A stretch of DNA of 64,000 nt from Sulfitobacter indolifex. Its GTDB lineage: Bacteria; Pseudomonadota; Alphaproteobacteria; Rhodobacterales; Rhodobacteraceae. This document shows positions 11,729 to 28,400 of this stretch, piece by piece; the stretch's first letter is position 1; every line of letters begins with the position of its first letter. The notes beneath the pieces are model-generated. The model was not told the DNA's origin and made no database searches. It saw nothing but the letters and a program-made list of their open reading frames with translations. Made by a program: the position numbers and the translations under genes. The stretch lies in contig NZ_CP084951.1 in NCBI RefSeq assembly GCF_022788655.1, positions 2,480,001 to 2,544,000 of the forward strand, written 5' to 3'.

Positions 11729-12508
11729 TCAGACGGTCCGTTCGACCATCAGTTTCTTGATATTGGCAATCGCTGCTGCCGGGTTCAGGCCCTTGGGGCA
11801 GGTCTTGGCGCAGTTCATGATCGTGTGGCAGCGGTAGAGTTTGAAGGGGTCTTCCAACTCGTCCAGACGCTCGCCCGTGGCTTCATCGCGGCTGTCGATG
11901 ATCCAGCGGTAGGCGTGCAGCAGCGCTGCTGGCCCGAGGTAGCGGTCGCCGTTCCACCAGTAGCTGGGGCAGGATGTCGAGCAGCAGGCGCACATGATGC
12001 ACTCATAGAGACCGTCAAGTTTGGCGCGGTCGTCGATCGACTGTTTCCACTCTTTGCGCGGCTCGGGCGTCTCTGTTTCCAGCCAAGGCTGGATGCTGGC
12101 GTGCTGGGCGTAGAAGTGGGTCAGGTCAGGGATCAAATCCTTGACCACCGGCATATGCGGCAGCGGGTAGATTTTGACCACGCCGTTGATCTCTTCCATG
12201 CCGTAGGTGCAGGCCAGCGTGTTGATCCCGTCGATGTTCATCGCGCAGGAGCCGCAGATGCCTTCGCGGCACGAGCGGCGGAAGGTCAGCGTGGGGTCGA
12301 TCTCGTTTTTGATCTTGATCAGCGCATCAAGGATCATCGGGCCGCAATCGTCCATATCGACGAAGTAAGTATCCAGCGCAGGGTTTTTCCCGTCGTCTGG
12401 GTTCCAACGATAGACATGGAACTCGCGCAGGTTGGTGGCACCTGCAGGCTTGGGCCACGTTTTACCGCTGGTCATGCGGGAGTTTTTTGGAAGCGTCAGT
12501 TGAACCAT
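11729..12508 (-). CDS. sdhB: Succinate dehydrogenase iron-sulfur subunit
   Basis: A 259-residue subunit of complex II passing electrons from FAD to quinone through three Fe-S centres. The cysteine ligands are visible: [15 protein letters not shown] with a later TLAC for [2Fe-2S], then [16 protein letters not shown] and [17 protein letters not shown] for the [4Fe-4S] and [3Fe-4S] centres. Last gene of the leftward sdhCDA-x-B operon and followed by a strong terminator. A small lipoprotein gene separates it from sdhA. Confidence 0.97.
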
Positions 12509-12518
12509 TGTGCGTCTC

Positions 12519-12854
12519 CTAAAGCGTCATGCCGGCTGCGGGCGCGGCGGCCAGCAGGCAGGATCGGGTCTCGGGGCGCGACAGGATCGTGCGCACGGTG
12601 CCCGTTGTGGTGTCCTCCACGCCGACAACAGCGGCGCGGGCCAGTTCGCGCAGTTCCAGCGCGTCGGCATTGTCGATGATGCAATCCGTGAAGGGGGTGA
12701 TCAGCTGTTTCGGCACCTGCGGGAAGCGGGTGGCCAAAATCTCGGTCACCACGCCTTTGGAGCCTTGGCGGGCGGTGTCATCCACCACCTGCTGCACTTC
12801 GACACAGGCCGTGAGCGCCGTGAGGCTGGCTGCAATGAGTACGGTGCGCAGCAT
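12519..12854 (-). CDS. Small lipoprotein-like protein inserted between sdhA and sdhB
   Basis: A 111-residue protein starting at the ATG at 12854, which overlaps the sdhA stop as TGATG. The N-terminus [16 protein letters not shown] is a signal peptide with a lipobox, predicting an inner- or outer-membrane lipoprotein. The mature part contains two further cysteines (TDCIID and RSCLL) that could form a disulfide. No recognised catalytic motif. Being translationally coupled inside the sdh operon points to a role linked to complex II or to its co-expression, which is inference. Confidence 0.75.
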
Positions 12855-14659
12855 CAATACACCCGTGCCTTGGGGGCGATCTTTTTCATGTCGATCCCGC
12901 CCTCGTCTTCTTTGGTCAGCGGGTCGAGGTGCACGGCGCGGTAGGTGAGTTTCGCGTCATTGCCTTCGAACCATGCCAGCGAGTGCTTGCGCCATTCGTC
13001 GTCGTTGCGATCCGGGTAGTCCTCATGCGCGTGTGCGCCTCGGCTTTCCTTACGCGCGGCGGCGGCGGTGATGGTGGCGGTGGCGTTGGGCATCAGGTTG
13101 GTCAGCTCCAGCGTCTCCATCAGGTCCGAGTTCCACACGAGGCTGCGGTCGGTGACATGCAGATCGTTGAGCTTGCCCGCGACCTCGATCATCTTCTCGC
13201 GGCCCTCTTCCAGCGTCTTATCGGTGCGGAAGACAGCAGCATCGGCCTGCATGGTCTTTTGCATCTCAAGGCGCAGTTCCGCCGTGGGCGTGCCGCCCTT
13301 GGCGTGGCGCAGACCGTCGAAGCGGTCAAAGGCTTTCGCGACGGAGGCCGGGTTTGCCGTTGGCACGGCAGTCTCGGGATCAACGATCTTGGCAGCGCGG
13401 ATCGCGGCGGCGCGGCCAAAGACCACAAGGTCGATGAGCGAGTTGGAGCCCAAGCGGTTCGCACCATGCACGGAGGCACAGCCCGCCTCGCCCACAGCCA
13501 TCAGGCCGGGCGCGATGGCGTCGGGGTTGTCCGCCGTTGGGTTCAGCACTTCGCCCCAGTAGTTCGTGGGGATGCCGCCCATGTTGTAGTGCACCGTGGG
13601 CAGAACCGGGATCGGCTCTTTCGTCAGGTCCACACCCGCAAAGATACGCGCGGATTCAGAGATGCCCGGCAGGCGCAGGTCCAGCGTTTCGGGTGGCAGG
13701 TGGTTCAGGTGCAGGTGGATGTGGTCTTTGTTCTCGCCCACACCACGGCCTTCGCGGATTTCCATGGTCATGCAGCGCGAGACAACGTCGCGGCTGGCGA
13801 GGTCTTTATACGTCGGCGCGTAGCGCTCCATGAAACGCTCGCCTTCGGAGTTGGTGAGGTAACCGCCCTCGCCCCGCGCGCCTTCGGTGATCAGGCAACC
13901 CGCACCATAGATGCCGGTGGGGTGGAACTGCACGAATTCCATGTCTTGCAGCGGCAGGCCCGCACGGGCCGCCATGCCGCCACCGTCGCCGGTGCAGGTG
14001 TGGGCCGAGGTGGCCGAGAAATACGCACGGCCATAGCCGCCGGTCGCCAGCACCACCATCTTGGCGCTGAACAGGTGCATGGTGCCGTCGTCCAGCTTCC
14101 AGCAGAGCACGCCTTGGCAAACACCGTCATCCGACATGATGAGGTCGATGGCGAAGTATTCGATGAAGAACTCGGCCTTCTGCTTTAGCGACTGGCCGTA
14201 AAGCGTGTGCAGGATCGCGTGGCCGGTCCGGTCAGCGGCGGCACAGGTGCGCTGCACGGGCGGGCCTTCGCCAAATTCAGTGGTGTGGCCGCCAAAGGGG
14301 CGCTGGTAGATCTTGCCCTCTTCGGTGCGCGAAAACGGCACGCCGTAGTGTTCCAGCTCGTAAACCGCCTTGGGCGCTTCGCGGGCGAGGTATTCCATCG
14401 CATCCGTGTCGCCCAGCCAGTCAGAGCCTTTGACCGTGTCATACATATGCCACTGCCAGTTGTCCGGTCCCATGTTGCTCAGCGACGCCGCAATGCCGCC
14501 CTGCGCCGCTACGGTGTGCGAGCGGGTTGGGAAAACCTTGGAGATACAAGCCGTGCGCAGCCCCTGCTCCGCCATGCCCAATGTCGCGCGCAGGCCAGCA
14601 CCGCCTGCCCCCACCACGACAACGTCATATTCGTGGGTTTCATATTCATATGCTGCCAT
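12854..14659 (-). CDS. sdhA: Succinate dehydrogenase flavoprotein subunit
   Basis: A 601-residue catalytic subunit of complex II oxidising succinate to fumarate. Seen: Rossmann FAD site [20 protein letters not shown] at the N-terminus, the covalent-FAD histidine in [15 protein letters not shown], the active-site region [20 protein letters not shown], and [20 protein letters not shown]. Full length. Sits between sdhD (29-base gap upstream) and the coupled lipoprotein gene. Confidence 0.98.
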
Positions 14660-14688: not shown

Positions 14689-15060
14689 TTACAGGGCGAG
14701 CTTGGCAATGGCGAAGACGCCGACTGCTGCTGCGCCGTAGCTGATGATGGTCATCACGATGATGGCGATTTTATTGGCAAGGCCGTGGACATAGTCCTCG
14801 ATCAGCACCTGCACGCCGTCATTGAAGTGCTTGAAGCCTACGATCAGCGTCAGCGCCGCCACGATGGCCGGGAAAGGCCGCGCGTAATAGGCGAGGATTT
14901 CCTCATAGGTGCCGCCAAGGGCACTGCCGAAGGTAAAGACGAAAAGCGGGATCAACACCAAAAGTGCCAGCGAGGAGACTTTCATCGCCCAGAAATGCGC
15001 GGTGCCGGTTTTGGCCGAGCCGAGGCCGAGGGCGCGTTTGCGGTCTGTCATATAAGCCAT
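14689..15060 (-). CDS. sdhD: Succinate dehydrogenase membrane anchor subunit
   Basis: A 123-residue protein from the ATG at 15060 (MAYMTDRKRALGLGSAKTGT), typical of alphaproteobacterial SdhD; a TTG five codons earlier is less likely. Three hydrophobic helices are visible (WAMKVSSLALLVLIPLFVFT, IVAALTLIVGFKHFNDGVQV, IAIIVMTIISYGAAAVGVFA), with HFNDGVQVLIEDYVH as the conserved quinone/haem-side motif. Immediately follows sdhC. Confidence 0.93.
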   Translation of the reverse strand: MAYMTDRKRALGLGSAKTGTAHFWAMKVSSLALLVLIPLFVFTFGSALGGTYEEILAYYARPFPAIVAALTLIVGFKHFNDGVQVLIEDYVHGLANKIAIIVMTIISYGAAAVGVFAIAKLAL

Positions 15061-15071
15061 TGTTTCGCTCC

Positions 15072-15455
15072 TCAAACGATGATGACGGTCAGGACGGTCA
15101 GGACGACTGACCCGATCAGCGCGGCGATGCCCAGCTTCTCAGCGGTCGGCACGTCAAGCATGCGGCCCGTGTCCCAGATCAGGTGCCGGATGCCGGCGAG
15201 CGTGTGATACCACAGGCCCAAGAGCGACAGGGTGAAGACCAAGTCACCGAACCAGCTGGTCATGATCCCGTTAACCGTATCGAAATACTCAACCGACGTG
15301 GCCGCGGCGAGGAACCACCAGACGATCAGCAGCGCGGTGATCAGCATCGCGTTGCCAGTGATCCGCGTGAGGATCGAAGTCATGGAGGTCAATTGCGGGC
15401 GGTAGATTGTCATATGCGGGGAAAGCGGGCGGTTACCCCGGTTCACATCGGCCAT
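15072..15455 (-). CDS. sdhC: Succinate dehydrogenase cytochrome b556 subunit
   Basis: A 127-residue three-helix membrane subunit. The family motif RPLSPHMTIYRPQLTSMTSI is at the N-terminus and the haem-ligand region LWYHTLAGIRHLIWD follows the second helix. First gene of the leftward sdh operon; the 5' region carries the twin TGTGATCACA element described separately. Confidence 0.95.
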   Translation of the reverse strand: MADVNRGNRPLSPHMTIYRPQLTSMTSILTRITGNAMLITALLIVWWFLAAATSVEYFDTVNGIMTSWFGDLVFTLSLLGLWYHTLAGIRHLIWDTGRMLDVPTAEKLGIAALIGSVVLTVLTVIIV

Positions 15456-15590
15456 GGCGCGGTCCTTTGTCCTGTGCTTTGCATCTTGATAGCGGTTTTT
15501 ACGGGACTGTCACGGGGAACTCCCGAGAATCTGCGGGATTTGGCCGGTCATTTAGCGGAAAAATGATGGGCTGCGGCTTTAGGGTGCATA

Positions 15591-15625
15591 TTTGTGATCA
15601 CAGCAGATTGACGTGTGATCACAAA
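15591..15625. promoter_or_regulatory. Twin TGTGATCACA operator upstream of sdhC
   Basis: Two perfect 10-bp palindromes TGTGATCACA (15593-15602 and 15614-15623), each extended by TT/AA, have centres exactly 21 bp apart, two helical turns. The 11-base spacer ends in TTGACG. The same element, with the same spacing and a similar spacer, precedes sucC at 21474-21508. This looks like a cooperative dimer-of-dimers site for a TCA-cycle regulator. Confidence 0.75.
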
Positions 15626-15699: not shown

Positions 15700-16803
<1,104 letters not shown>

Positions 16804-18418: not shown

Positions 18419-18722
18419 AGCTTCTGCCTTCGCATCAAAAGGCGTGGCCCTAAGGACTGGCAATGCGCGGTCTTCCGCATCACCCCGCGGGCGGCCTTGG
18501 TTGAAATGACTGCATCTGTGCGATGGGATGGATCGGCAGATGCGATGTAGAGCAGACTGCGCCTCAGTACTAAAGGAGTGGTTAACCCGCCGTCCGGAAC
18601 CGCCGCGCCCCTAGGTTCGCTGCGTCGCGGCATATTTGACCTTGAAGTTTTCGCACAAAAATGCCCCTCTGCACGCAACAATGTTAGGCGGCCAATGCGC
18701 CGCCCTGCCCAAGGAGCCTCAC

Positions 18723-19589
18723 ATGACCGCCACCACCCGTCCGCTTCGTTCCGTCCTCTATATCCCCGGCTCCAAGCCGCGCGCCCTCGATAAGGCGCGC
18801 GGTCTGGCCTGCGACGCGGTGATTTTTGATCTCGAAGACGCGGTTTCACCTGATGAGAAGACCGCCGCCCGCGATACGCTGGCCGAGGCATTGGCAACGG
18901 GCGGCTACGGTGCGCGGATGCGCGTGGTGCGCATCAATGGGCTGGACACAGAATGGGGCGCTGATGACGCCCGCGCCGCCGCCGCGATGAAACCCGACGC
19001 GATTTTGCTGCCTAAGGTCGGCTCCCCCCCCGACCTTGAAGCTCTGACCGAGATTGTCGGCGACATCCCCCTCTGGGCGATGATGGAAACTCCGGGCGCG
19101 ATGCTGAACGCCGCCGCCATCGCCGGGCATCGCCAGCTGCAGGCGATGGTCATGGGCACAAACGATCTGGCCAAAGACCTGCAAACCCGCTTCCGCCCCG
19201 ACCGCCTGCCGCTGGTCACCGGCCTCGGCCTCTGCCTGCTGGCCGCCAAGGCGCATGGCGTGGCGATCATCGATGGCGTTTATAATGCGTTCAAGGACGA
19301 AGACGGGCTGCGCGCCGAATGCGACCAAGGCCGCGACATGGGTTTTGACGGCAAAACACTGATCCACCCGGCGCAGCTTGATATCGCCAATGCCGCCTTC
19401 ACCCCCTCGGAAGACGAAGCCACCCTCGCCCGCCGCCAAATCGACGCCTATGAAGAAGCGCAAGCCGCCGGCCAAGGTGTCGCGGTCGTTGATGGCAAGA
19501 TTGTCGAAAATCTCCATGTTGCCACCGCCCGCGAAACACTGGCAAAACTGGAGGCAATCACAGCCATGACCCCGGAGTCCTCCTCATGA
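18723..19589 (+). CDS. mcl2: (3S)-malyl-CoA thioesterase / CoA-ester lyase family
   Basis: A 288-residue protein of the HpcH/HpaI-CitE lyase family. Start at 18723, 7 bases after AAGGAG. Signatures: SVLYIPGSKPRALDKARGL, FDLEDAVSPDEK (metal/CoA site), METPGAMLN and MGTNDLAKDLQ. Its short length and co-transcription with mesaconyl-CoA hydratase fit Mcl2, which hydrolyses (S)-malyl-CoA to malate in the ethylmalonyl-CoA pathway, more than the longer lyase Mcl1. The stop overlaps nnrU as ATGA. Confidence 0.85.
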   Translation: MTATTRPLRSVLYIPGSKPRALDKARGLACDAVIFDLEDAVSPDEKTAARDTLAEALATGGYGARMRVVRINGLDTEWGADDARAAAAMKPDAILLPKVGSPPDLEALTEIVGDIPLWAMMETPGAMLNAAAIAGHRQLQAMVMGTNDLAKDLQTRFRPDRLPLVTGLGLCLLAAKAHGVAIIDGVYNAFKDEDGLRAECDQGRDMGFDGKTLIHPAQLDIANAAFTPSEDEATLARRQIDAYEEAQAAGQGVAVVDGKIVENLHVATARETLAKLEAITAMTPESSS

Positions 19590-20143
19590 CCATTCTCATC
19601 CTCGGCCTGATCCTTTGGATCGGCGCCCACCTCTTCAAACGCCTGATGCCCGCACAACGCGCCCAACTGGGCAGCGCAGGCCGCGGCGCGGTGACGGCGG
19701 CGCTCGTCGTGGCACTGGCCCTCATCATCTGGGGCTATCGCACAGCCGAGTTCATCCCGGTCTGGAACCCGCCCAGCTTCTTTACCCATATCAACAACCT
19801 GCTGATGCTACTGGCCTTCTGGGTCTTCGGCTCAAGTGCGGCCAAAGGTGCCAAAGCATGGCCCGCCTATAAAACCCGCCACCCGCAACTGCTGGCGGTC
19901 AAGATCTGGGCCACCGCCCACCTGCTGGTCAACGGCGACCTTGCCGCGATCCTGCTCTTTGGCACCATGCTCGGCTGGGCCGTGAGCGAAGTCATCCTCA
20001 TCAACCGCGCCGAGCCAAACTGGACCCCTCCGCCTCGCGCGGGCCGCGCCACCTATATCCGCCTGATCGTCATCTCCGCGATCATGTTCGCTCTTGTCGC
20101 CGCCATCCACATGTGGCTGGGCGTCATCCCCTTCCCCCATTAA
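19586..20143 (+). CDS. NnrU family membrane protein
   Basis: A 185-residue inner-membrane protein with about five hydrophobic segments (MTILILGLILWIGAHLFKRL at the N-terminus, HINNLLMLLAFWVFG, AVSEVILINRA). It matches NnrU/NnrS-neighbour family proteins first linked to nitric-oxide metabolism, related to methyltransferase-like isoprenylcysteine membrane folds. Here it is translationally coupled to mcl2 and followed by DUF1737 and mch, so a link to denitrification is not supported locally. Confidence 0.8.
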   Translation: MTILILGLILWIGAHLFKRLMPAQRAQLGSAGRGAVTAALVVALALIIWGYRTAEFIPVWNPPSFFTHINNLLMLLAFWVFGSSAAKGAKAWPAYKTRHPQLLAVKIWATAHLLVNGDLAAILLFGTMLGWAVSEVILINRAEPNWTPPPRAGRATYIRLIVISAIMFALVAAIHMWLGVIPFPH

Positions 20144-20156
20144 CCCGGAGCCTGCC

Positions 20157-20360
20157 ATGAAAGTTTACCGCTTCCTCTCCGAAGAGGACACATCCGCCTT
20201 TTGTCACAAGGTCACCGACGCGCTGAACAAGGGATGGGAGCTTTACGGCACCCCGACCCAGACATGGGACCACAAAGCCGGGGTCATGCGCTGCGGCCAA
20301 GCCGTGATCAAAGATGCCCCCGGCACCTATTCGCCAGACACCAAACTGGGTGCGCAGTGA
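20157..20360 (+). CDS. DUF1737 domain protein
   Basis: A 67-residue protein starting at 20157 (MKVYRFLSEEDTSAFCHKVT). The compact alpha/beta sequence with KGWELYGTPTQTWD matches DUF1737, small proteins that often end with or precede metabolic enzymes. The stop overlaps the mch start as TGATG. Function unknown. Confidence 0.75.
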   Translation: MKVYRFLSEEDTSAFCHKVTDALNKGWELYGTPTQTWDHKAGVMRCGQAVIKDAPGTYSPDTKLGAQ

Positions 20361-21391
20361 TGAGCAAAACCAACCGGGGCCGCTTTTTTGAGGACTACCA
20401 ACTGGGCGAGGTGCTGCACCACGCCGTGCCCCGCACGGTTGGAGAAGGCGAACGCGCGCTCTATCATGCGCTCTACCCCGCGCGTCACGCGCTCTATTCT
20501 GCGGACAGTTTTGCACAATCTAGCGGGCTTAAGGCCAGCCCCCTCGACGATCTGATCGCCTTTCACATCGTCTTTGGCAAAACCGTGCCGGATGTTTCGC
20601 TTAATGCAGTGGCCAACCTTGGCTATGCGCAGGGCCGCTGGCTACTGCCGGTCTGGCCTGGCGACACGCTGCGTGCAGAGAGTGAGGTCATTGGCCTCAA
20701 GCAGAACTCCAACGGCAAGACCGGCGTTGTCTGGGTCCGCACCACGGGGCTGAACCAACACAACGAGAAGGTGTTGGAATACGTCCGCTGGGTGATGGTG
20801 CGCAAAGGCAATCTGGATGCCGCAGCGCCCGAGACAACCGTGCCTGACCTGCCCGACGTCCTGACTGTCGAGCAGCTTAGGGTGCCAGAGGGGCTGGACT
20901 TCACCCACTACGATTTCGCCCATGCCGGAGAGCCGCACCGCTGGGGCGATTACGAAGTGGGTGAAAAGATCGACCACGTCGATGGCGTGACGGTCGAAGA
21001 AGCCGAGCACATGATCGCCACGCGCCTGTGGCAAAACACGGCGAAAGTGCACTTTGACACCTCTGCCAGGCCCGACGGGTCTCGCCTGATCTACGGCGGT
21101 CATGTCATCTCAATGGCGCGGGCGTTGTCGTTCAACGGGCTGGCCAATGCGCAGATGATTGCGGGCCTTAACGGTGGCGCGCATGCGAACCCTTGCCTCT
21201 CGGGCGACACGATCCGCGCATGGACCGAAGTGCTCGACAAAGCCGAGACAGCAGCCCCCGGTGTCGGGGCAATCCGTCTACGGTTGGTCGCCACCAAAGG
21301 CGGCGCCCCTTTTGAGTTGCGCGATGAGGCGGGCAAATACCGCCCGGAGGTTCTCCTTGACCTCGACTACTGGGCGCTCATGCCGCGCTAA
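20360..21391 (+). CDS. mch: Mesaconyl-CoA hydratase (beta-methylmalyl-CoA dehydratase)
   Basis: A 343-residue tandem hot-dog (MaoC-like) enzyme hydrating mesaconyl-CoA to beta-methylmalyl-CoA in the ethylmalonyl-CoA pathway. Start MSKTNRGRFFEDYQLGEVLH overlaps the preceding stop. Both halves carry MaoC-like features: YSADSFAQSSGLKASPLDDL in the first and IYGGHVISMARALSFNGLAN in the second. The operon partner mcl2 acts nearby in the same pathway. Followed by a hairpin. Confidence 0.9.
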   Translation: MSKTNRGRFFEDYQLGEVLHHAVPRTVGEGERALYHALYPARHALYSADSFAQSSGLKASPLDDLIAFHIVFGKTVPDVSLNAVANLGYAQGRWLLPVWPGDTLRAESEVIGLKQNSNGKTGVVWVRTTGLNQHNEKVLEYVRWVMVRKGNLDAAAPETTVPDLPDVLTVEQLRVPEGLDFTHYDFAHAGEPHRWGDYEVGEKIDHVDGVTVEEAEHMIATRLWQNTAKVHFDTSARPDGSRLIYGGHVISMARALSFNGLANAQMIAGLNGGAHANPCLSGDTIRAWTEVLDKAETAAPGVGAIRLRLVATKGGAPFELRDEAGKYRPEVLLDLDYWALMPR

Positions 21392-21473: not shown

Positions 21474-21508
21474 TTTGTGATCACACGCATTTGACGTGTG
21501 ATCACAAA
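21474..21508. promoter_or_regulatory. Twin TGTGATCACA operator upstream of sucC
   Basis: Perfect TGTGATCACA at 21476-21485 and 21497-21506, centres 21 bp apart, extended to TTTGTGATCACA and TGTGATCACAAA. The spacer CGCATTTGACG resembles the one at the sdh element (GCAGATTGACG). It lies 108-142 bases before the sucC start. Confidence 0.75.
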
Positions 21509-21615
21509 TGCCATTTTTAGCTGGTCAAACCCAACTTTCTCGGAAAAAACCCTTACAGGAACGAGAGTCACCCCCATACTAAGGGGCAACTGGAACAGAA
21601 ACGGGACCGTTTTTC

Positions 21616-22809
21616 ATGAACATCCACGAATATCAGGCGAAAGCCCTCCTGCGCAGCTATGGCGCCCCTGTCTCCGACGGCCGTGTCGTGCTTAAGGCCG
21701 AAGACGCCAAGACCGCCGCTGGCGAGATGGACGGCCCGCTTTGGGTGGTCAAAGCGCAAATCCACGCAGGTGGGCGCGGCAAAGGCAGCTTTAAAGAAGC
21801 CGGCGCTGGCGAAAAAGGCGGCGTGCGCCTGACCAAATCCGTGGAAGAAGCGGCAGAAGAAGCCAAAAAAATGCTGGGCAAGACGCTGGTCACGCACCAG
21901 ACCGGCCCCGCAGGCAAACAGGTTAACCGCATCTACATCGAAGACGGCTCCGACATTGAGCGTGAGTTGTACCTCGCGCTGTTGGTCGACCGTCAGACCA
22001 GCCGCATCTCATTCGTCTGCTCCACCGAAGGCGGCATGGACATCGAAGAAGTCGCCGACGCGACACCTGAGAAAATCCTCAGCTTCTCCGTCGATCCGGC
22101 CACCGGCTATCAGCCTTTCCACGGCCGCCGCGTTGCATTCTCGCTGGGCCTCGAAGGCACAGCCGTCAAACAATGCGTCAAGCTGATGGGTCAGCTTTAC
22201 CAAGCCTTCATCGAGAAGGACATGGAGATGCTTGAGATCAACCCGCTGATCGTCATGCCCGGCAACGACCTGAAAGTGCTCGACGCGAAGGTCAGCTTCG
22301 ACGGCAACGCGATGTACCGTCAGCCCGACGTCGCCAACCTGCGTGACGAGACCGAAGAAGACAGCAAAGAACTCGAAGCCTCCAAATACGACCTGAACTA
22401 CATCGCACTCGATGGCGAGATTGGCTGTATGGTCAACGGCGCGGGCCTCGCCATGGCGACGATGGACATCATCAAGCTCTACGGTGCCGAGCCTGCCAAC
22501 TTCCTTGACGTGGGCGGTGGTGCGACCAAAGAGAAAGTCACCGAAGCCTTCAAAATCATCACATCTGATGAGAACGTCAAAGGCATCCTCGTGAACATCT
22601 TCGGCGGCATCATGCGCTGCGACGTCATCGCCGAAGGCGTTGTCGCTGCGGTGAAAGAAGTCGGTCTGAAAGTGCCGCTGGTTGTCCGCCTCGAAGGCAC
22701 CAACGTCGAAGAAGGCAAAGCGATCATCAACAACTCCGGTCTTGATGTTATCGCCGCTGATGACCTGAAAGACGGCGCTCAGAAAATCGTGAAAGCGGTT
22801 AAGGGCTAA
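21616..22809 (+). CDS. sucC: Succinyl-CoA synthetase beta subunit
   Basis: A 397-residue ADP-forming subunit that, with SucD, makes ATP (or GTP), CoA and succinate from succinyl-CoA. The ATP-grasp start [20 protein letters not shown], the [15 protein letters not shown] loop, LEINPLIV and [13 protein letters not shown] are all present. Unusually it is not adjacent to sucD: three envelope genes and two hairpins intervene. Preceded by the twin operator. Confidence 0.97.
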
Positions 22810-25360: not shown

Positions 25361-25394
25361 GGTCTTGCGGCCCCCCTTCCGGTGCCGCAAGACC
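25361..25394 (+). repeat. Intra-operon hairpin between sucD and sucA
   Basis: A perfect 10-bp stem GGTCTTGCGG / CCGCAAGACC with a 14-nt C-rich loop starts 10 bases after sucD; no T-run. Likely an mRNA-processing or stability element that sets different levels of SucCD and OGDH. Confidence 0.65.
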
Positions 25395-25439
25395 CCACGA
25401 CCCCTATGCCTACGGTCCCAACCCACACGAGGTACTCTC

Positions 25440-28400
25440 ATGACCGACCAACCCGCCAACGAACAATTCCGCGCCTCCTCCTTCATGGAAGGCGAAAACG
25501 CAGAGTATCTTGAGGCGATGTACGCCCGCTATGCCAACGATCCCAACGCGGTCGATGGCGCTTGGCAGGAATTTTTCGCGGCGATGGGCGACGACGCCGA
25601 AACCGCGCAGGCCGAGGCCGCTGGCCCGTCTTGGGCGCGCCGCGATTGGCCGCCTGCACCTGCGGGCGAAGTGATGGGCGCGTTGACGGGCGTCTGGCCC
25701 GAACCTGCCGAAGCACAAGCCGCTGGCGACAAGATTAAAGCCAAAGCCGCCGAGAAGGGGGTTGAGGTTTCCGACGCACAGGTCAAGCAAGCCGTGCTCG
25801 ACAGCATCCGCGCGCTCATGCTGATCCGCGCCTACCGCATCCGGGGCCATTTGGCTGCCGACCTTGATCCGCTTGGCATGCGCGAGACCGGCAACCAGCC
25901 CGAGCTTGACCCGAAGTCTTACGGTTTCACTGACGCTGACATGGACCGCCCGATCTTTATCGATCAGGTGCTGGGCCTTGAAGTGGCGACAATGAAGCAG
26001 ATCGTCGACATCGTGCGCTCAACCTACTGCGGCACCTTCGCGCTGCAATACATGCATATCTCCGACCCCGAGCAGGCCGGCTGGTTGAAAGAGCGGATCG
26101 AAGGCTACGGCAAAGAAATTCAGTTCACTAAGGAAGGCCGCAAGGCGATCCTGAGCAAACTTGTCGAGGCCGAGGGCTTTGAGAAGTTTCTCCACGTCAA
26201 ATACATGGGCACCAAGCGCTTTGGCCTTGATGGCGGCGAAAGCCTTGTCCCGGCGATGGAGCAAATCATCAAGCGCGGCGGCCAGTTGGGTGTCAAAGAC
26301 ATCGTCATCGGCATGCCCCACCGGGGCCGTTTGTCGGTCCTCGCCAATGTGATGCAGAAACCCTACCGCGCGATCTTTAACGAATTCCAAGGCGGCAGCT
26401 TTAAACCTGACGATGTGGACGGTTCGGGCGATGTGAAATACCACCTCGGCGCGTCCTCAGACCGTGAGTTTGATGGCAATTCGGTTCACCTGTCGCTGAC
26501 CGCCAACCCCTCGCACTTGGAGGCGGTGAACCCCGTCGTGTTGGGCAAGGTCCGCGCCAAGCAGGACCAGCTGAACGACAAGGACCGTACGGCGGTGATG
26601 CCAATCCTGCTGCACGGCGATGCGGCCTTTGCGGGCCAGGGCGTCGTGGCGGAGTGTTTCGCGCTTTCGGGCCTCAAGGGCCACAAAACCGGCGGCACCA
26701 TGCATATCGTGGTGAACAACCAAATCGGCTTCACCACCGCGCCGCATTTCTCGCGCTCCTCGCCCTATCCCACCGACAACGCGCTGGTGGTTGAGGCGCC
26801 GATCTTCCACGTCAACGGCGACGACCCCGAAGCGGTCGTGCACGCCGCCCGCGTGGCCACCGAATTCCGTCAGAAGTTCCACAAAGACGTGGTCATCGAC
26901 CTCTTCTGCTACCGCCGCTTTGGTCACAACGAAGGCGACGAGCCGATGTTTACCAACCCGGTGATGTACAAGAGCGTCAAGAAACAGAAAACCACGCTGA
27001 GCCTTTATACCCAGCGTCTGGTCGCCGATGGTCTGATCCCCGAAGGGGAGATTGAGGACATGAAGACCGCCTTCCAGAACCATCTGGGCGCGGAATTTGA
27101 AGCGGGCAAAGACTACCGTCCGAACAAGGCCGATTGGCTGGACGGCAAGTGGTCACACATGGACAAAAAGAAAAAGTCCTACCAGCGCGGCAAGACGGCC
27201 ATCGCACCCGAAACCCTGCAGGAAGTCGGCAAGGCGCTCACCACCGCGCCCGACAAATTCCCGCTGCACAAGACCATCGGTCGTCTGCTCGAAGCGAAAA
27301 AGGCGATGTTCGAAAGCGGTGAAGGTTTTGACTGGGCCACTGCTGAGGCAATGGCCTTCGGCTCCCTGCTGACCGAGGGCTACAAGGTCCGCCTGTCTGG
27401 CCAAGACAGCACGCGCGGCACCTTTAGCCAGCGGCATTCGGCATTCGTCAACCAAGACAACGAAGACCGCTACTACCCGCTGAACCACATCCGCGAGGGT
27501 CAGGCCGAGTATGAGGTCATCGACTCGATGCTCAGCGAGTATGCGGTGCTGGGCTTTGAATATGGCTACTCGCTGGCCGAGCCCAATGCGCTGACGCTCT
27601 GGGAGGCTCAGTTTGGTGACTTCGCCAACGGCGCGCAGATCATGTTTGACCAGTTCATCTCAAGCGGTGAAAGCAAATGGCTGCGGATGTCGGGCCTCGT
27701 CTGCCTGATGCCGCATGGCTATGAGGGTCAGGGGCCCGAGCACTCTTCTGCCCGTCTGGAGCGTTTCCTCACCATGTGTGGGGGCGACAACTGGATCGTG
27801 GCGAACTGCACCACGCCCGCCAACTACTTCCACATCCTGCGCCGCCAGCTGCACCGCAGCTACCGCAAGCCGCTGATGTTGATGACGCCCAAGTCACTGC
27901 TGCGCCACAAGCTTGCGGTGTCCAACGCGGATGATTTCACCACCGGGTCGAGCTTCCACCGAGTTCTGTGGGATGACGCCCAAAAGGGCCATTCCGACAC
28001 CAAGCTGGTCGCGGATGACAAGATCAAGCGCGTGGTGATGTGTTCGGGCAAGGTCTATTACGACCTGCTGGAAGAACGCGACGCGCGCGGCATCAACGAC
28101 GTCTATCTCCTGCGGTTCGAGCAGTTCTATCCCTTCCCCGCGCAATCGGCGGTCAAGGAACTGGAACGCTTCAAAGGGGCCGAGATGATCTGGTGCCAAG
28201 AAGAGCCCAAAAACCAAGGTGCGTGGTCCTTCATCGAGCCAAATATCGAATGGGTTCTGGGCCGCATCGACGCCAAACATGGCCGCGCCTCCTATGTGGG
28301 CCGCGCCACCGCCGCCTCGCCCGCCACGGGTCTGGCCAGCCAGCACAAAGCACAACAAGCCGCCCTCGTCGACGAGGCGCTGACCATCAAAGGAAACTAA
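25440..28400 (+). CDS. sucA: 2-oxoglutarate dehydrogenase E1 component
   Basis: A 986-residue thiamine-diphosphate decarboxylase of the 2-oxoglutarate dehydrogenase complex. Start MTDQPANEQFRASSFMEGEN at 25440. The N-terminal E2-binding helix region (EYLEAMYARYANDPNAVDGA), the IGMPHRGRLSVLANVM motif, AFAGQGVVAEC, the ThDP magnesium site region IGFTTAPHFSRSSPYP, and QFGDFANGAQIMFDQFISSG are visible. Full length. Co-transcribed with sucB four bases downstream. Confidence 0.97.
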   Translation: MTDQPANEQFRASSFMEGENAEYLEAMYARYANDPNAVDGAWQEFFAAMGDDAETAQAEAAGPSWARRDWPPAPAGEVMGALTGVWPEPAEAQAAGDKIKAKAAEKGVEVSDAQVKQAVLDSIRALMLIRAYRIRGHLAADLDPLGMRETGNQPELDPKSYGFTDADMDRPIFIDQVLGLEVATMKQIVDIVRSTYCGTFALQYMHISDPEQAGWLKERIEGYGKEIQFTKEGRKAILSKLVEAEGFEKFLHVKYMGTKRFGLDGGESLVPAMEQIIKRGGQLGVKDIVIGMPHRGRLSVLANVMQKPYRAIFNEFQGGSFKPDDVDGSGDVKYHLGASSDREFDGNSVHLSLTANPSHLEAVNPVVLGKVRAKQDQLNDKDRTAVMPILLHGDAAFAGQGVVAECFALSGLKGHKTGGTMHIVVNNQIGFTTAPHFSRSSPYPTDNALVVEAPIFHVNGDDPEAVVHAARVATEFRQKFHKDVVIDLFCYRRFGHNEGDEPMFTNPVMYKSVKKQKTTLSLYTQRLVADGLIPEGEIEDMKTAFQNHLGAEFEAGKDYRPNKADWLDGKWSHMDKKKKSYQRGKTAIAPETLQEVGKALTTAPDKFPLHKTIGRLLEAKKAMFESGEGFDWATAEAMAFGSLLTEGYKVRLSGQDSTRGTFSQRHSAFVNQDNEDRYYPLNHIREGQAEYEVIDSMLSEYAVLGFEYGYSLAEPNALTLWEAQFGDFANGAQIMFDQFISSGESKWLRMSGLVCLMPHGYEGQGPEHSSARLERFLTMCGGDNWIVANCTTPANYFHILRRQLHRSYRKPLMLMTPKSLLRHKLAVSNADDFTTGSSFHRVLWDDAQKGHSDTKLVADDKIKRVVMCSGKVYYDLLEERDARGINDVYLLRFEQFYPFPAQSAVKELERFKGAEMIWCQEEPKNQGAWSFIEPNIEWVLGRIDAKHGRASYVGRATAASPATGLASQHKAQQAALVDEALTIKGN

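Follow-up and report, generated by a model that had tools for sequence, protein, structure and literature searches.

Twin palindromes two helical turns apart upstream of sdhC and sucC in Rhodobacteraceae, probable operators of the GntR-family regulator AkgR

Two copies of the palindrome TGTGATCACA stand side by side upstream of sdhC in the 64,000-nucleotide stretch of Sulfitobacter indolifex DNA analysed here (the window). An initial annotation, made from the letters of the DNA, had described two perfect 10-bp palindromes with centres exactly 21 bp apart upstream of sdhC and an identical architecture before sucC, and had proposed a dedicated TCA-cycle regulator, possibly AkgR. Both twins were recovered as exact matches (Table 1), with zero mismatches in all four copies, 21 bp from centre to centre in each, and half-sites that abut without a spacer. 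The placement of the first twin had to be corrected: it does lie upstream of sdhC, but sdhC and mdh are both on the minus strand, so that the twin is downstream of mdh and also of a terminator-like hairpin recognized by eye.

Table 1. Features of the sdh and suc loci and the candidate regulator gene (window positions except for akgR; gene identities were checked with NCBIfam and Pfam)
Feature	Position	Strand	Evidence or remark
sdhB, iron-sulphur subunit	11729..12508	-	NF004616 over cut-off
sdhA, flavoprotein	12854..14659	-	TIGR01816 over cut-off
sdhD, membrane anchor	14689..15063 (scan range; start codon approximate)	-	TIGR02968 over cut-off
sdhC, succinate dehydrogenase cytochrome b556 subunit	15072..15455	-	TIGR02970 over cut-off; Pfam Sdh_cyt
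Predicted -10 box of sdhC promoter, TATCAA	15486..15491	-	16 bp from -35 box
Predicted -35 box of sdhC promoter, GTGACA	15508..15513	-	88 bp from start of proximal GTGATCAC core
sdh twin, sdhC-proximal palindrome TGTGATCACA	15593..15602	.	exact match; kept in relatives
sdh twin, 11-bp spacer	15603..15613	.	centres 21 bp apart
sdh twin, sdhC-distal palindrome TGTGATCACA	15614..15623	.	exact match
mdh, malate dehydrogenase	15700..16659	-	NF004863 and TIGR01763 over cut-off; far side of sdh twin from sdhC
suc twin, sucC-distal palindrome TGTGATCACA	21476..21485	.	exact match
suc twin, sucC-proximal palindrome TGTGATCACA	21497..21506	.	exact match
Weakly predicted -35-like box of sucC promoter, CTTACA	21552..21557	+	adjoins conserved A-rich/CGTTT block
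Weakly predicted -10-like box of sucC promoter, CATACT	21575..21580	+	weak boxes
sucC, succinyl-CoA ligase beta subunit	21616..22809	+	NF001913 over cut-off
sucA, 2-oxoglutarate dehydrogenase E1	25365..28400	+	NF006914 over cut-off; further down sucC's strand
akgR orthologue, 216 residues	C1:3077307-3077954	-	about 0.5 Mb from window; unlinked to sdh/suc cluster

With up to two mismatches the single 10-mer occurs 30 times in the window, against 20 expected, and a lone TGTGATCACA-like site is weak evidence because the 10-mer is so common there. The pair behaves differently: even when three mismatches were allowed, TGTGATCACA-N11-TGTGATCACA matched only twice in the whole 4,498,570-base genome, at the sdh and suc twins, and the reversed control of the pattern gave no match in the same 4,498,570 bases. 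This genome-wide search had been suggested together with the initial annotation; each of its two hits is at a TCA operon, and none fell at a random site. The exact single palindrome is found eight times in the genome, four copies forming the two twins, one standing 8 bp ahead of a GntR start codon, and three lying within long open frames of other genes.

The arrangement is widespread in the family. The 21-bp pair, with up to two mismatches, was present in 347 of 395 Rhodobacteraceae genomes, the window's own counted. On the other 48 we ran a 20-bp pattern (N10 between full 10-mers, three mismatches), which matched 17; the 15 with at most two mismatches were counted, including one from the window's own genus (G050), and the remaining two (G362 and G376) carry no akgR. 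A looser pattern built on the core of the palindrome, GTGATCAC-N13-GTGATCAC with three mismatches, matched all 48 and was of no use; the N10 pattern of full 10-mers was taken in its place. The spacing of exactly 21 bp proposed earlier thus holds for both twins of this genome, while the rule across relatives is 20 or 21 bp. Among 387 genomes sampled across the class, six belong to the family, five of them with the pair, and 381 to other families, 2 of them with it. A further sample was blind to the motif, its 80 loci being picked by their SucC protein, and 36 of these had a SucC from or close to Rhodobacteraceae. The pair preceded sucC in 35 of the 36, at 21 bp in 31 and at 20 bp in 4; the one exception, the sucC of L171, has 10-kb flanks free of mdh and is perhaps a second copy. 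Among the 23 sdhC upstreams readable in this sample, 19 had the pair at 21 bp, 2 at 20 bp and 2 a single site, so that the pair is not strictly required. The only other pair distances up to 60 bp, 48 and 57 bp, were each seen once, at sdhC. When one mismatch at most was allowed, the sites numbered 74 in the 36 sucC upstreams against about 4 expected from shuffled sequence, compared with 6 against 5.4 in 44 sucC upstreams of other alphaproteobacteria.

The genes next to the pair agree with the proposal of a dedicated TCA-cycle regulator. Besides the two genomic pairs, the best 30 family loci that were read all lie directly upstream of sucC or sdhC, and one genome (G037) has a third pair (L266, 501-531), situated 124 bp ahead of a gene start; the partial protein read from that gene best fits class II fumarase (fumC). 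The regulon may therefore extend to another TCA step, fumarase, in some species. A lone TGTGATCACA was also found in G184 (L289, 699-708), 143 bp upstream of a dihydrolipoyl dehydrogenase gene, again by best fit of a partial protein.

Which protein might bind the twins was approached through the GntR/FCD proteins of the genome. FCD domain matches occur at 20 loci, and only one of them has TGTGATCACA within 1.5 kb. This gene, an akgR orthologue, carries the palindrome as TTGTGATCACAA, 8 bp before its ATG, and its product combines an N-terminal GntR winged helix (PF00392, 51.5 bits) with a C-terminal FCD domain (PF07729, 62.2 bits), both over cut-off. Another FCD gene of the genome (L048) has CGTGATCACG some 350 bp upstream. 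Among the 30 family proteins most similar to AkgR, which were chosen by similarity to the window genome's copy (itself included) and not at random, 29 have an exact GTGATCAC near their gene, and in 28 its centre lies 9-15 bp ahead of the start codon as aligned. Four further akgR orthologues were inspected: the site is present in two and absent in R. sphaeroides and G138.

We take AkgR to be RSP_0981 of R. sphaeroides, and the abstract of Imam 2015 reportedly states that it directly activates several TCA genes. One family genome (G046) was taken as Rhodobacter (Cereibacter) sphaeroides on the basis of a PufL (reaction centre L protein) 100% identical to that of R. sphaeroides. It has both twins, with 0 and 1 mismatches, and an AkgR orthologue 78% identical to the protein here, whose gene ends about 0.75 kb past sdhB in a cluster that holds suc genes, mdh, HpcH, NnrU, a hydratase gene and sdhCDAB. 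In published work on R. sphaeroides, RSP_0968 is mdh, RSP_0967-6 succinyl-CoA synthetase, RSP_0965-62 2-oxoglutarate dehydrogenase and RSP_0974-6 sdh, while the GntR regulator RSP_0981 has as its predicted targets succinyl-CoA synthetase, 2-oxoglutarate dehydrogenase and sdh (PMC4344238). The position of the orthologue beside sdhB in G046 fits the number RSP_0981 relative to RSP_0962-0976; the equation with RSP_0981 is made by the 78% identity and this gene position rather than by the RSP_0981 sequence itself. A second paper calls AkgR an activator and gives GTGATCAC as a motif among its sites (PMC6365646). That motif is what we find at the sdhC and sucC promoters, and the targets predicted in R. 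sphaeroides (sdh, sucCD, sucAB) correspond to the twins that precede sdhC and sucC, sucA following further down the same strand. Together with the palindrome at the akgR start and the co-occurrence described below, the published motif and the R. sphaeroides gene position speak for AkgR as the initial annotation had suggested, and this GntR/FCD protein is the likely, sequence-predicted binder of the twins. The same annotation had called the half-site compatible with the FadR subfamily. The FadR/FCD-type operator has the form TNGTNNNACNA, a consensus rather than a strict criterion; TTGTGATCACAA is similar to it and one base longer, with four central bases instead of three.

A CRP/FNR site was considered as well and set aside. 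The CRP site is TGTGA-N6-TCACA, with a gap of six bases, whereas the half-sites of the twin abut; CRP also belongs to another protein family, and here two palindromes stand in tandem.

Presence of akgR and presence of the pair go together across the 395 family genomes. An orthologue was called at E 1e-70, a cut-off set afterwards in the gap between E 6e-75 and 5e-59, and five of the non-matching genomes were identified by elimination. Of the 365 genomes with an orthologue, 359 have the pair (344 at 21 bp, 15 at 20 bp) and 6 do not; of the 30 without, 27 also lack the pair and 3 have it (G018, G105 and G225). A plain cut-off of E 1e-35 gives 25 genomes without akgR, 2 of them with the pair. On closer reading, three of the six akgR-bearing genomes scored as pair-less (G053, G258 and G367) do show a pair of cores at the 21-bp distance before sucC, the core mismatches numbering 0, 1 and 2; in G178 the sucC start was unread, and G056 and G139 gave no sucC match. 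The three genomes with a pair and no akgR are assemblies of 210-320 contigs, and the missing gene may be an assembly gap. None of the 24 sucC upstreams read from the 27 genomes that lack both has the pair, two of them having a lone one-mismatch site. Relatives do not count as independent cases: the akgR-less genomes fall at several places in the SucC tree, and well-supported branches leave 2 independent contrasts between akgR and the pair; an independent-pairs test on these two was not significant. With only two contrasts on strong branches, the link between akgR and the pair is therefore to be read as an association and not as proven joint losses.

These data bear on two alternatives. The relatedness of the genomes, and nothing further, would favour a twin that is a chance pattern or a phylogenetic relic without function, and we regard such an origin as extremely improbable in view of the excess of sites before sucC, the fixed spacing, and the 24 of 24 pair-free sucC upstreams just described. 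A more serious candidate is a paralogous GntR/FCD protein (L045, L057 or L060) as main binder of the twins in place of AkgR, since all three belong to the same broad subgroup. The palindromes extend beyond AkgR in at least one respect: two pairs were found outside the family, neither with sdhC or sucC found beside it, and one of them (L121, in G520) precedes the gene of an AkgR-like GntR protein that is non-orthologous to AkgR and closer to L060 and L045 than to it, with a three-site phased array at its promoter. Because this protein has the same palindromes, the motif is not unique to AkgR. We nevertheless consider a paralogous binder improbable, as akgR is the only one of the 20 FCD loci here with TGTGATCACA, its orthologue adjoins sdhB in R. 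sphaeroides, and the same orthologue tracks the pair over the 395 genomes, a comparison that covered akgR alone among the GntR proteins.

In 60 of 65 pair-anchored sdhC upstreams, GTGACA or GTGACT (about once ATGACT) precedes a TA-rich -10-like box by 15-18 bp. Each upstream was represented by its highest-scoring element on the downstream side of the pair, the pairs themselves being sought at centre spacings of 20 and 21 bp only and exact duplicate loci being dropped; the element is absent from the other five, which were left out of the distance counts. Counted from where the proximal core begins, the 60 distances to the -35 box fall at 55-56 (2 cases), 65-68 (51), 78 (2) and 86-88 bp (5), and none of the 60 lies between these four clusters. 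The best period of the shifted cases is about 10.5-10.75 bp, and a phasing simulation of the nine off-cluster cases gave p of about 5e-5 when all nine are taken as independent, rising to 0.0012 with six independent shifts and 0.0032 with five. A tree covering 47 of the 60 promoters needed six distance shifts, on weakly supported branches; its strong branches force only 2. The vector strength was at most 0.24 for the distance to the start codon against 0.89 for the -35 box, the latter value being dominated by the main cluster. An unseeded motif search returned the element in the same four places for 60 of the 65 rows and elsewhere for 5 (offsets 21, 22, 23, 41 and 90).

At sucC, where the triple array of L008 was counted as two rows, the picture is less sharp: seeded scoring of -35 and -10 boxes was clear for sdhC and unclear for sucC. 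The unseeded search found the ribosome-binding region first and, once this was trimmed, an A-rich/CGTTT block, mostly at offset 45-46 and about 10 bp nearer in a smaller group of 13 rows. The start codons are also about 10 bp nearer in 7 of these 13 rows and not in the other 6, and 3 rows outside the group have them equally near; because the start codons shift only partly with the block, phasing at sucC is only suggestive. By transcription starts placed by hand from the boxes, the centre of the proximal palindrome lies about 85 bp upstream at sucC, about 96 bp in the main sdhC cluster and about 118 bp at sdhC in this genome. Class I activators such as CRP have upstream sites at whole helical turns from the promoter, and twins at whole turns from the sdhC promoter are the geometry expected of an upstream activator acting on one face of the polymerase.

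The same positions weigh on two other readings of the twin. An RNA element or terminator, formed by the two palindromes pairing with each other, might be suspected at suc, where the twin and the bases around it form one long inverted repeat whose pairing, judged by eye, reaches 17 bp. Identical palindromes, however, can always pair, so the pairing is uninformative, and the twin lies upstream of the predicted promoter and would therefore be outside the mRNA, which makes such an element very improbable. GntR regulators are mostly repressors, and the twin could also be a repressor site or roadblock for AkgR or another protein that is released by a TCA metabolite; the single akgR site, which overlaps the start region, has a repressor-like place. 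At the twins, by contrast, the predicted -35 box begins some 50 bp or more downstream of the pair centre, which places the pair beyond the usual polymerase footprint, and the distance at sdhC is kept in whole helical turns. With AkgR also termed an activator in the literature (PMC6365646), we judge repression at the twins unlikely.

The reading that we favour is that AkgR dimers occupy each palindrome and activate sdhC and sucC from upstream, the single site at akgR serving autorepression; we think this probable, arguing from sequence and position. Each palindrome would be the operator of one dimer, so that two dimers would sit side by side on the same helix face, two turns (20-21 bp) apart, with the pair some 85 to 120 bp upstream of the presumed sdhC and sucC transcription starts. 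Activation would proceed by contact with RNA polymerase, as it does for class I activators. Since the akgR palindrome sits in the start region, a repressor's place, AkgR most likely would shut down its own synthesis there. A broader proposal, to which we give an even chance, is a two-level helical code in which two dimers of a FadR-type GntR activator lie exactly two turns from each other and whole turns from the promoter, tolerate shifts of 11 or 22 bp, and are braked at the regulator's own start. The twin would then mark a Rhodobacteraceae-wide master switch of the TCA segment from 2-oxoglutarate to fumarate that is gained and lost together with the akgR gene.

The switch as such is not new, as the link of AkgR to the TCA cycle, its GTGATCAC motif and its TCA targets are already published. 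The regulon of AkgR (RSP_0981) in R. sphaeroides shares with the system here the GntR/FCD regulator, the motif and the sdh and suc targets; it differs in that akgR is here unlinked to sdh and suc and its start bears a palindrome that is missing from the R. sphaeroides genome. By sequence, the best solved relative of AkgR is McbR of E. coli (PDB 4p9f, E 6e-20), whose targets and operator presumably differ from those of AkgR and for which we know of no role in the TCA cycle. A GntR protein of the Pseudomonas simiae deoxyribonate cluster, PS417_07240, is 32% identical to AkgR, and its proposed binding site is a GTGATCAC immediately before the gene that encodes it (PMC6365646); this is a single site with a catabolic cluster, and the accessible part of that paper describes no twin or TCA target. 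In the accessible literature on AkgR and the motif, the motif figure of the original AkgR paper aside, we found neither the paired-site geometry nor the promoter phasing; the twin may be contained in that figure, and the likeliest novelty is the operator geometry.

In the sea, Rhodobacteraceae are important oxidisers of carbon, and a rule of two GTGATCAC cores 20-21 bp apart, at whole turns from a promoter, would mark likely direct TCA targets of AkgR among them. The strict spacing makes the twin switch testable, as the rule predicts which spacing changes would abolish activation, and the natural distance series of 55, 66, 78 and 87 bp offers a handle on how a GntR protein may activate from upstream.

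Several minor observations were made alongside. The interval between mdh and sucC (window 18636-21391) contains an HpcH/HpaI-type lyase, an NnrU protein and a mesaconyl-CoA hydratase-like gene, and in G046 and G138 these three again adjoin sdh and suc, perhaps an indication that a C4/C5-CoA side pathway belongs with the sdh-suc cluster. Ten genomes besides G037 have three or four pair matches each, among them G175, which has a triple array at sucC. In G520, a genome of another alphaproteobacterial family, the array of L121 (972-1022) consists of three TGATCAC-type palindromes in phase, with spacings of 20 and 21 bp. It stands directly before a GntR/FCD gene whose product shares about 30% identity with AkgR, and a TonB-dependent receptor gene is divergent from that gene. 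In the window genome, a lone CGTGATCACA at C1:2449914 (L297, 1501-1510) lies about 110 bp upstream of an open frame that by eye resembles a small DoxX-type membrane protein, and may represent a minor target.
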